From Pontimonas sp. (GTDB lineage Bacteria; Actinomycetota; Actinomycetes; Actinomycetales; Microbacteriaceae): a stretch of 64,000 nucleotides of DNA. The translations under genes were made by a program, and so were the position numbers. Shown here piece by piece: positions 24,589 through 29,286 of this stretch. The notes under the pieces are model-generated. The model ran no database searches, had not been told where the DNA came from, and saw only the letters and a list, made by a program, of their open reading frames with translations. The stretch lies in contig JAGYJI010000005.1 of NCBI GenBank assembly GCA_018402295.1, positions 141,067 to 205,066 on the forward strand, written 5' to 3'. Numbering within the stretch: position 1 is the stretch's first letter; each line of letters starts with the position of its first letter.

Positions 24589-25386
24589 CTAGGGCTGGGT
24601 GGGAATCGGCTGAGCGAGGGATAACCATTGGTGCTGCCACAACTCTCGGCGCCCAGGAACCATGCTCAGTGGAGGACCCTCCACAAATCCCGTCGCTACT
24701 CGGATGCCCTGCAGTGCACTGAGAATCCAGACCTCGGCTCCCTCGAGGTCGGACACGCTCACATCCTCCGCAACGACAGGGATGCCGGCACTCCGGGCAT
24801 AGTCGGTGAGAACCGCTTCGGTGATACCGGGGAGGTGGGGAGTGGTGGGAGGAATCACGGTCGGGTAGTCGTTTCCCGCCAGCCAGATCATGAGTGAGCT
24901 GTAGGCGCCCTCCACCAGAAGGTCATCGGCGGTGGTGATGATGGCTTCGGTCGCTCCCAGGGGTGCCACCTGTGTGCGAAGAGCGAGCAAGGCTTCTAGG
25001 TCAGGACCCTTGGTGTGGGGGAACCGCCTCGGGTCGTGTGGCGCCCTGGCAATGACCACCTCGGAACTCCACGGCGGAGCGGGCCTTTCTCGATAGCGCA
25101 GCGTTGCACCACCGGGGGTCTCCACGGCTTCAATCCGGGGAAACCATGATCCCTCGGTGGGAAGAGCGCTCACCAGCGCCGACAGAAAAGCATCCAGTCG
25201 ATTGGGAGTTATGTCCGTGCCCGAGAGCACAGAGTCAGAGAAACGTTCCAGGTGGCGCTCCAGTGCCACCACCAGGCCGTTCTCCAGGCGGAAAGAATCA
25301 GCGACCAGCGTGGTCTGCCGGGCCGGGTCGCACCACTCGATGGGAGAGAAGAGCTCCCCCGAGAACTGGTACAGAATCTGACTCAT
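24589..25386 (-). CDS. pabC: PLP class IV aminotransferase-fold protein, likely aminodeoxychorismate lyase
   Basis: Likely converts 4-amino-4-deoxychorismate to p-aminobenzoate and pyruvate. The 265 residues have the fold-type IV pattern: VADSFRLENGLVVALERHLERF (N-terminal), ATEAIITTADDLLVEGAYSSLMIWL and LPGITEAVLTDYARSAGIPVVAEDV. The lysine expected for the PLP Schiff base may be that in HTKGPDL. The assignment rests mainly on its position divergent to pabB with only 12 bp between them; D-amino-acid or branched-chain transaminase relatives are alternatives. The ATG at 25386 appears leaderless. Confidence 0.75.
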   Translation of the reverse strand: MSQILYQFSGELFSPIEWCDPARQTTLVADSFRLENGLVVALERHLERFSDSVLSGTDITPNRLDAFLSALVSALPTEGSWFPRIEAVETPGGATLRYRERPAPPWSSEVVIARAPHDPRRFPHTKGPDLEALLALRTQVAPLGATEAIITTADDLLVEGAYSSLMIWLAGNDYPTVIPPTTPHLPGITEAVLTDYARSAGIPVVAEDVSVSDLEGAEVWILSALQGIRVATGFVEGPPLSMVPGRRELWQHQWLSLAQPIPTQP

Positions 25387-25399
25387 AGGCTAAAGGCTA
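25386..25399. promoter_or_regulatory. Nested divergent leaderless promoters of pabC and pabB
   Basis: On the plus strand TAGGCT (25386-25391), 7 nt, then the pabB ATG. On the minus strand TAGCCT (complement of 25394-25399), 7 nt, then the pabC ATG. Each -10 box overlaps the other gene's start codon, so the whole intergenic space is 12 bp and the two promoters cannot be occupied together. Confidence 0.55.
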
Positions 25400-26720
25400 T
25401 GACGAAGGGCTTTCTGAGGCATCCTTTGCACCACCGTGCCACGCCCGCCGAAGCCTTCCATGCTCTCTGTGGAGAGAGCCCGAACGCCTTCTGGTTTGAT
25501 CACCACGGTGAACGTGGCAGCGGAGTCTCCTATGTTGCTCTCGGCAGTCCGCTGACACTGAGTGAGAACTGGCGTGCTGAGGTTCGCTCAGCCTGGTCTG
25601 GTCTGTCCGTGCCAGAGGGCTTGGACCTTGGAGGCGTGCCGCTGGGCATCCACCTCGTCTTGCCCTATGAGCTGGGTTCCCACACGCTGGGCGTTGAGGA
25701 CTCGGGTGACGCAATTCCACTGGCGTTTGTGGTGGACCGGGTGCTCGAGGTCCGCCACGACAGTGGCGAGCTCATCGCATGGGCGCTGGGCTCGAAAGAC
25801 GCGCTGGCTCCCTGGGTGGAGAGCATTGAGCAGGCCCTCGACGCCATGTCGCCCCTGCCAGACCCTGTGCTCGATTCGGTGCGTGAGGTTACCTGGCGAG
25901 ACTCCGAAGCGCGCTACCTCGAGATGATTCAGAGTGCACAGGACTTTATTTCTCAGGGGGACGCCTACCAGCTCTGTGTCACGACATCGCTGTCCGTCGG
26001 AGCACGTGTGGACCCGGTGGCTTTGCACCGGGTCATGCGGGAGTCCAACCCCACACACCATCAAGCGCTGATGCGCTTTGAGGACGTGACCCTTGTTTCG
26101 GCGTCACCGGAAACTTTCCTCTCGGTATCCCAGGAGGGGGAGATCATCACCCGGCCCATCAAGGGCACCCGGCCTCGCGGTGTTACCCCGGAGCAGGATG
26201 CAGCACTGAGTGCTGAACTCCTGGAGAGCGACAAAGAGCGTGCCGAAAACTTGATGATTGTGGATTTGATGCGCAATGACCTATCCCGGGTATGTGAGAC
26301 CGGCAGCGTGCGAGTCCCGGAGCTCTTGGTCGTGGAGAGCTATGCCACGGTTCACCAGCTTGTCAGCACCATCACGGGCCAGATTCGAGAAGGCCTTGAC
26401 CTCCTCGATGTCCTGGAGGCCGCCTTCCCCGCGGGTTCCATGACGGGGGCGCCCAAGAAGCGCGCGGTGGAAATTCTGCAAGAGCTAGAGGGTCGCCCCG
26501 GGGTCTCTACTCCGGAACCTATGGAGTGTGGCGGGCTGATGGAAGTGCAGAGTTCGCGATGACGATTCGCACCGCCATCGTGGGACCGGACTCACTGACG
26601 GTGGGTGTGGGCGGTGGCATCACAGCGTTGAGTGAGCCCCCGGAAGAAATCCGGGAAGTCGGGATCAAAGCCCAGGCTTTTCTTCGTGCGCTTGGCGTAG
26701 AGCAAGTTGGTTATTCTTGA
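25399..26720 (+). CDS. pabB: Aminodeoxychorismate synthase component I (one apparent frame break)
   Basis: Chorismate-binding enzyme that makes aminodeoxychorismate for folate. Motifs are GDAYQLCVTTSL, ITRPIKGTRPRG, RAENLMIVDLMRNDLSRV and PAGSMTGAPKKRAVEIL. The ORF ends wrongly after LEGRP; one C missing at 26496-26499 restores RGLYSGTYGVWRADGSAEFAMTIRTA, the normal C-terminus, seen in the track as a separate ORF at 26526. The start is ATG 25399; the track start at 25252 overlaps pabC. No glutaminase subunit is found nearby. Merged length is about 440 residues. Confidence 0.93.
26712..26717 (+). promoter_or_regulatory. Leaderless -10 box for leuS
   Basis: TATTCT, 6 nt, then GTG at 26724. It lies within the 3' end of pabB and decides in favour of the GTG over the following ATG 26727. 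Confidence 0.55.
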
Positions 26721-26723
26721 GAA

Positions 26724-29286
26724 GTGATGACTTCGTCTGGTGCGCCTGAATCCGAGGGCGACCAAGCGTTTGACCCCCACGCGCTAGAAGCCAAATGGTC
26801 GGCCTACTGGGACGAAGCAGAACCCTTCACTGTTCCGCTGGAAGGCGATGATCGTCCCCGGAAATACGTGTTGGACATGTTCCCCTACCCCTCGGGCGAC
26901 CTCCACATGGGTCACGCGGAAGTGTATGCACTGGGCGACGTTGTCGCTCGATACTGGCGGTCTGCAGGGCTTCCAAGTTCTCCACCCGATTGGCTGGGAT
27001 TCCTTTGGGCTACCGGCAGAAAACGCTGCAATCAAGCGTGGAGTAGACCCGCGGGAGTGGACCTACTCGAACATCGACCAGCAAAAAGCCTCCATGAAGC
27101 GCTACGCGGCATCGTTTGACTGGTCACGTGTGCTGCACACCTCAGACCCTGAGTACTACAAGTGGAACCAGTGGTTGTTCCTGAAAATGTATGAAAAAGG
27201 CCTCGCCTATCGCAAAGACTCCTGGGTCAACTGGGATCCCGTCGATCAGACGGTGCTCGCCAACGAGCAGGTTCTCCCCGATGGGACTTCGGATCGCAGC
27301 GGCGCGATGGTGGTCAAGAAGAAACTCACCCAGTGGTATTTCACGATCACCGATTACGCGGATCGTCTCCTGGATGATCTCAACCAGTTGGAAGGCCGCT
27401 GGCCCGCCAAAGTCCTCGCCATGCAGCGCAACTGGATTGGCCGCTCGGAGGGCGCCGAAGTTGATTTCGTCATTGAGGGCAGGGACACCCCGGTGACCAT
27501 CTTCACCACCCGCCCCGACACCCTCTTTGGCGCCACGTTCATGGTGGTCGCACCGGATTCTGACCTTGCCGCAGAACTCGTCGAAGGGTCCAGCACCGAG
27601 GTCCAGGAGGCCTTTGCCTCGTACCTGGAAGCAGCGCAGAAAGCGACCGAAATTGATCGTCAGGACGCGTCTCGAGAAAAAACGGGTGTTTTCCTCGAGC
27701 GCTACGGGATCAACCCGGTCAACGGTGAGCGGTTGCCGATCTGGGCGGCAGATTATGTCTTGGCTGATTACGGAACAGGCGCCATCATGGCTGTTCCCGC
27801 CCACGACCAGCGTGACCTCGACTTTGCCCTGAAATATGACCTTCCGGTTCGCGTGGTCCTGGACACCAACGCCCCCGTGACAGGCGCGATTCCCGTGGTG
27901 ACCGAGGAGATGCTGGCCACCGGAGACATTCCACTGGCCAACCCTGCGGAGACGGGGGAAGCGCTGCCCGGCGATGGGCGCATGATCAACTCCGGTCCCC
28001 TGGATGGGTTGAGTAAACAAAACGCCATCACCCGGATTATCGAACTCCTGGACGACGCAGGAACTGGGCGGCGCGCAAAAACCTACCGACTGCGCGATTG
28101 GCTGATTTCGCGGCAACGCTACTGGGGAACCCCAATCCCGATCCTCTATGACGAGGACGGGAAAGAGATTCCGGTGGCACTCGATCAGCTTCCGGTGACC
28201 TTGCCTCCCAGTGAGGGATTGGATTTGAAGCCCAAAGGCTCGTCACCGCTGGGAGCGGTGACCGACTGGGTGGAGGTGGAGCAGGATGGGAAAATTCTGC
28301 GACGCGACGCCGACACCATGGACACGTTCGTCGATAGTTCCTGGTATTTCCTCCGTTTTCTCTCTCCCCACGATGACACCCAAGCGTTTGATGTGGCGCA
28401 GGCGGAGAAATGGGCGCCAGTGGATCAATACGTGGGCGGGGTGGAGCACGCCATTTTGCACCTGCTCTACGCCCGATTCATCACCAAGGTTCTTTTCGAC
28501 CTGGGGTATGTCTCGTTCACCGAGCCCTTTACGTCATTGCTCAACCAGGGAATGGTCATTTTGGATGGCGCCAAAATGAGCAAGTCCAAGGGCAACCTGG
28601 TCTATTTCACCGAGGAGCTTGATTCCTACGGTGTGGATGCGGTGCGACTCACGATGGCCTTTGCCGGGCCTCCCGAGGACGACATCGACTGGCGGGACGT
28701 CTCGCCGGTGGGGTCACAAAAGTTTTTGGCCAGAGCGTGGCGCCTCTCCGGAGAGGTCTCCAGCACACCGGGTGTGCACGTCAGCGGAGGAGATGTGGCG
28801 CTTCGCCGCCATGTTCACCGGTTCCTAGCCGACATCCCGGGCCTTATCGAGAGCTTCAAGTTCAACGTGGCGGTGGCGCGCACGATGGAACTGGTGAACC
28901 ACACCCGGAAGACCATTGACCAGGGACCAGGTGCGGCAGATCCTGCTGTTCGAGAATCAGCGGAAGCTATTGCGATCGCGCTCTCCATGTTTGCCCCGCA
29001 CACCGCGGAAGACATGTGGGAGCGTCTCGGGCACGAGCCCTCAGTGGCTTTGGTGCGCTGGCCAGAGGCCGACCACACGCTCTTGGTGGAAGAGTCGGTG
29101 ACCGCGATTGTCCAGGTAAATGGCAAAGTACGGGAACGACTGGAAGTCCCTCCCACCATTGGTGGGGATGATTTGGAAAAACTCGCGAGGGAGTCGCCCT
29201 CGATCATGCGAGCGCTGGAGGGCAAGACTGTCGTGAACGTGGTGGTTCGAGCTCCCAAAGTGGTCTCCATTCAGGTCAGCGACTAG
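26724..29286 (+). CDS. leuS: Leucyl-tRNA synthetase (one apparent frame break)
   Basis: Charges tRNA-Leu with leucine. The HIGH-type motif is HMGH in [14 protein letters not shown], and the KMSKS loop is [12 protein letters not shown]. The editing domain with [18 protein letters not shown] lies between. [16 protein letters not shown] belongs to the catalytic core. The first ORF leaves frame after RYWRS; removing one G at 26964 joins it to [20 protein letters not shown]. Merged length is about 853 residues, as expected. The GTG start appears leaderless. Confidence 0.97.

Follow-up and report, generated by a model that had tools for sequence, protein, structure and literature searches.

A predicted doubly leaderless bidirectional promoter nested between pabC and pabB in the Microbacteriaceae

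The 18 bp at which the divergent genes pabC and pabB meet in the window (the whole 64,000-nt stretch of Pontimonas sp. DNA analysed here) read CATAGGCTAAAGGCTATG on the plus strand, and very probably form a doubly leaderless bidirectional promoter that serves both genes. The nested site is not a product of chance; shuffles lead one to expect 0.01 occurrences of the corresponding pattern, CATANNNTNNANNNTATG, in the window, which has one, and the 894 kb examined of this genome (60% complete) contain a single occurrence, with none of the reversed control. Bidirectional promoters and leaderless promoters were both already known. What is new is the 12/13-bp register, which makes use of start-codon bases, and its conservation across the family.

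The junction and its two predicted promoters

Re-reading the sequence confirmed the layout that an earlier note on this DNA had described, namely its coordinates and quoted core, the 12-bp gap and a -10 box 7 nt from each ATG (Table 1). It also bore out the claim that each box overlaps the start codon of the other gene: the overlap is exactly one base on either side (25386 and 25399), where the A that opens each ATG is complementary to the first T of the opposite hexamer. The term 'face-to-face', which the same note had used for the two promoters, is a misnomer, since the predicted transcripts run apart without overlapping; the arrangement is one of overlapping back-to-back promoters.

Table 1. 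Features of the pabC/pabB junction and the genes that flank it (window coordinates).
Feature	Position	Strand	Remark
pabC-like gene, class IV aminotransferase, putative aminodeoxychorismate lyase	24589..25386	-	265 aa
pabB, aminodeoxychorismate synthase component I	25399..26562	+	assembled frame broken near 26496
Junction CATAGGCTAAAGGCTATG	25384-25401	+	18 bp
Core quoted by the earlier note, ATAGGCTAAAGGCTAT	25385-25400		
Intergenic gap between the two ATGs, AGGCTAAAGGCT	25387..25398		12 bp
pabB ATG	25399-25401	+	
pabC ATG	25386-25384	-	
Predicted pabB -10 hexamer, TAGGCT	25386..25391	+	7 nt before the pabB ATG
Predicted pabC -10 hexamer, TAGCCT	25399-25394	-	7 nt before the pabC ATG
Predicted pabB transcription start, leaderless	25399	+	A of ATG; predicted from TANNNT spacing and the leaderless literature
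Predicted pabC transcription start, leaderless	25386	-	A of ATG; predicted likewise; 13 bp from that of pabB

Both ATG starts are backed by conservation, with the PabB and PabC proteins of relatives aligning from residue 1 at these positions. Each gene has a TANNNT whose first T lies 13 bp upstream of its start codon, close to the spacing by which leaderless genes are recognized, and each lacks a Shine-Dalgarno sequence at working distance. AAAGGCT precedes pabB, with a GG that ends 3 nt before the ATG and is thus too close for a normal Shine-Dalgarno, and the pabC ATG is preceded by TTTAGCCT.

The identity of PabB is clear from its match to TIGR00553 pabB (E 2.7e-77) and to Chorismate_bind (220 bits). 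PabC matches Pfam Aminotran_4 at 71.5 bits (cut-off 28.5); since the NCBIfam aminodeoxychorismate lyase models match it weakly and under their cut-offs, its exact activity rests on the partnership with pabB. The assembled pabB frame breaks at CCCCGGGG, and comparison with relatives places the conserved C-terminus in another frame, resuming after the break and running to about 26720. The leuS gene (26724-29286) likewise changes frame near 26960-26975, giving two probable indels in less than 500 bp of sequence. The frame breaks in pabB and leuS are probably assembly errors (indels) that leave the junction unaffected.

Leaderless genes of Actinobacteria can be recognized by a TANNNT that precedes the start codon by about 12 bp, as described from sequence (PMC3160421). 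We counted TANNNT by its spacing to the start upstream of 1,589 called starts in a complete genome of the same genus. Spacings of 6, 7, 8 and 9 nt were found 122, 52, 26 and 18 times, respectively, against about 7 per position elsewhere, the first T at the genome-wide peak lying 12-13 bp ahead of the start codon. No hexamer is commoner in this genome than TAGGCT (50 of 347), and TAGCCT is among the commonest. The pab boxes thus stand at the genome's own spacing and use common hexamers, which makes them ordinary members of its promoter class. No -35 element stands out on either side of 57 nested loci, whether judged by information content or by the best TTGACA match against shuffles, and the leaderless promoters of the complete genome, as a group, are likewise without a clear one. 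Within the part of the literature covered, we found no published transcription-start mapping for any member of the Microbacteriaceae.

Conservation and variation across the family

Conservation was counted in a survey anchored on PabB rather than from pattern hits, because the latter had been selected by the pattern itself. A PabB profile search of 150 Microbacteriaceae genomes yielded 109 new loci which, with 16 of the window's genus, made 125; the count excludes the 16 PabB matches of lowest similarity and one incomplete contig, and a neighboring pabC was identified by protein similarity. Although 11 of the 12 rows of the profile came from pattern hits, nearly every genome still returned its PabB.

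A pabC gene adjoins pabB in 92 of the 125 loci, divergently in every case, and the other 33 have no adjoining pabC. The nested form is found in 59 of the 92 divergent loci, in 28 genera, which, the loci being related by descent, does not amount to 59 independent gains. Here D, the distance in bp between predicted starts, is 12 in 45 loci and 13 in 14 (57 scored automatically, and L017 and L190 by inspection), and no locus found at either distance lacks a box. A further 14 of the 92, from 8 genera, carry a single shared TANNNTA core at D = 18-20 (L014, L015, L215, L226, L228, L231, L233, L243, L246, L250, L253, L258, L262, L266), and the remaining 19 have wider gaps or one recognizable box. The -10 boxes are therefore conserved in relatives, a check that the earlier note had proposed, and the contrary outcome that it had named, a widened gap with the boxes lost, is that of a minority (the 19, against 59 nests and 14 shared cores).

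The nest is present in Homoserinibacter, Salinibacterium, Galbitalea soli, Marisediminicola senii, Microcella and Frondihabitans, and the shared-core form in Agreia and Aurantimicrobium. Within the window's genus the junction is nearly invariant, reading CATAGGCTAAAGGCTATG or CATARGCTAAGGCTATG down to a pabB identity of about 43-46%, and the form kept by these relatives can be written CATARGCTAA(A)GGCTATG. At four loci (L234, L237, L238 and L275) the pabC box is kept and the pabB start lies 54-70 bp away, an apparent decay of the nest; at L234 and L238 the distant pabB start is preceded by a Shine-Dalgarno-like GGGAGG.

Across the family as a whole the junction is far from uniform, with 35 distinct sequences among 57 nested junctions. 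In both hexamers the three middle bases vary, whereas T, A and T never change, in part because the class is defined by them; such variation around constant letters points to TANNNT boxes rather than to one fixed operator. Family-wide, the pabC hexamer favors CC before its last T (TANCCT) more than does the pabB hexamer, which is TAGGMT-like.

Nested loci are spread over the family on the PabB tree, yet are far more clustered than shuffled labels would be, requiring 14 changes against a mean of 41.8. When only nested and shared-core loci are considered, at least three switches between the two forms are needed. One of these is clear: L014 and L015, which have a shared core, are placed among nested members of the window's own genus. 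Both keep TAGGCTAAAGGCTATG before pabB, with the pabC start 6 bp further off and the left TAGGCTA read both ways.

Pattern searches found similar nests at other genes. In many genera of the family, genes for a methionine aminopeptidase (M24) and for a SPOR-like protein of 57-81 aa diverge from nested leaderless boxes at D = 13 (L131, L135-L137, L139-L144, L147-L149). The genes upp (uracil phosphoribosyltransferase) and a tadA-like deaminase gene diverge from nested boxes at D = 12 or 13 (L138, L172, L173). In the complete genome of the window's genus, both the map/SPOR and the upp/tadA pairs are divergent and not nested. A pattern search found the 12-bp pattern to be rarer in other families of the order.

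Base economy and alternative readings

We worked out every distance that allows two divergent TANNNT-N6/7-RTG promoters to coexist. Most distances demand 12 fixed positions, and the cheap ones demand 10: these are 7, 12, 18 and 23 (spacings 6/6), 8, 13, 20 and 25 (7/7), and 19 and 24 (6/7). At 7, 8, 12 and 13 both genes must begin with ATG, since the start-codon A is there the pairing partner of the T in the facing box. Base sharing of one of these kinds is seen in all 73 close two-box pab loci (those with D no greater than 20), 12 as 6/6, 13 as 7/7 and the core at 18-20, and their start codons follow suit, with ATG/ATG at D = 12 and 13 and at least one GTG in 12 of the 14 loci at D = 18-20. 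Distances of 18 and 23 are preferred in Escherichia coli too (PMC12825309). Base economy accounts for the register, so that no appeal to regulation is needed.

At the pab junction, RNA polymerase with the housekeeping sigma factor would read the plus-strand TAGGCT and start pabB at its own ATG or, alternatively, would recognize the minus-strand TAGCCT and initiate pabC 13 bp away, likewise at the gene's own ATG. The hexamers lie side by side, and each would double as the initiation region of the other promoter. Since polymerase would have to bind and melt the same bases whichever way it faced, only one direction could be initiated at any moment. Polymerase complexes are in general so large that two promoters this close cannot be occupied simultaneously, and exclusive use by one polymerase at a time is expected to follow from the geometry. 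We infer transcription from both boxes, the start sites and the expression level from the sequence. As neither side shows a -35, the two promoters are more likely to be weak than strong, and the likely role of the junction would be to express two enzymes of the same pathway constitutively, at low and roughly matched levels, from minimal DNA. What keeps the close register in place is most likely that it needs the fewest specified bases; it would also be maintained because a change in a shared base would harm both genes, each shared base being in effect guarded twice.

The earlier note had gone further, proposing that mutual exclusion couples the two enzymes of p-aminobenzoate synthesis. The nest would then be a selected control device in which polymerase exclusion ties the output of PabB to that of PabC, which we consider unlikely. 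The geometry would indeed force exclusion, and the arrangement has been maintained in 28 genera, but base economy alone explains the spacing, neither flank of the 57 nested loci showed a -35, and anticorrelated expression of two enzymes that catalyze sequential steps would bring no obvious benefit. Bidirectional promoters of E. coli can be cited on both sides: transcription one way can be repressed when the opposite direction is strongly activated, and competition appeared once one direction was activated, yet all five of the promoters tested were too weak at basal level to compete (PMC12825309). On these three counts (sequential steps, no -35, and E. coli analogues that are basally too weak) the proposed coupling is unsupported. 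It is similarly doubtful that the 12/13-bp nest with shared start codons makes up a distinct class of bidirectional promoter, leaderless and restricted to ATG, that was selected and kept for coupling by polymerase exclusion. A regulatory switch at the junction is possible but unsupported.

Two other readings dispute the boxes themselves. Possibly only one hexamer works and the other gene is transcribed from an upstream start inside its neighbor, the second box being a by-product of symmetry. TANNNT is short, and L234, L237, L238 and L275 do retain one box with the start of the other gene moved away; however, both boxes have the spacing typical of leaderless genes across the genome, none of the loci found at D = 12 or 13 is missing either of them, the two hexamers are unlike each other and vary between genera, and neither ATG has a Shine-Dalgarno at normal spacing, all of which makes this reading quite improbable. 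Even harder to credit is that the conserved 12 bp are the operator of a regulator or a translation signal rather than two -10 boxes. The repeat AGGCTAA(A)GGCT, almost invariant in the window's genus, would fit such a signal, but the TANNNT letters are what stays constant across the family, and 14 loci, two of them in the window's genus, have the single TANNNTA core at another spacing instead. Because the inner bases of the hexamers differ between members of the family, we also discarded a fixed operator.

Relation to known promoters

If the junction is, as we favor, a doubly leaderless bidirectional promoter, it belongs near a type that was reportedly first defined in a 2021 paper by the Warman/Grainger group. 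According to the papers of Warman, Forrest, Wade and Grainger from which we take our definitions, bidirectional promoters have divergent transcription start sites 7-25 bp apart, most commonly 18, and bind polymerase in one orientation at a time (PMC12825309, PMC10268837). The pab junction resembles them in that its predicted -10 elements and start sites reciprocally overlap on opposite strands. The start distance predicted for it, 13 bp (12 or 13 in nested relatives), would lie inside this range. It differs in register: bidirectional promoters prefer 18 bp, then 10 and 23, whereas the pab nests stand at 12 or 13. The commonest register, in which pairing of -7 with -11 gives 18 bp, is usual rather than required, and is not that of the junction. 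Unlike these bidirectional promoters, the pab nest is predicted to make two leaderless transcripts, with the A of each start codon partnering the first T of the opposite -10.

The leaderless TANNNT genes of Actinobacteria resemble pabB and pabC in having a TANNNT some 12 bp ahead of the start codon, but they were described as single genes, and the word 'divergent' is absent from that text (PMC3160421). Closest of all are the shared-core pabC/pabB junctions at D = 18-20, which involve the same gene pair, are predicted to be leaderless on both sides and have overlapping -10 elements; they differ in having one 7-bp core that is read both ways, like the usual 18-bp bidirectional promoter, and often in using GTG. 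We found no description of two leaderless promoters nested through their start codons in the part of the literature covered. The remark in the earlier note that it knew of no description of such an arrangement therefore holds, within that literature, for the leaderless 12/13-bp form, and has to be given up for bidirectional promoters as such, which are known with start sites 7-25 bp apart.

The arithmetic of shared bases yields a testable rule, that close leaderless divergent pairs are expected at 12, 13, 18-20 and 23-25 bp, with those at 12 and 13 bp using ATG only. More generally, the junction indicates that a bidirectional promoter can recruit start codons into the opposite -10 element, and such a predicted promoter has been kept at one gene pair across at least 28 genera, in some lineages switching to the usual shared-core form. 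The pabC/pabB junction thereby offers natural variants of both geometries in front of the same genes, a system in which to ask whether regulation or economy keeps them.
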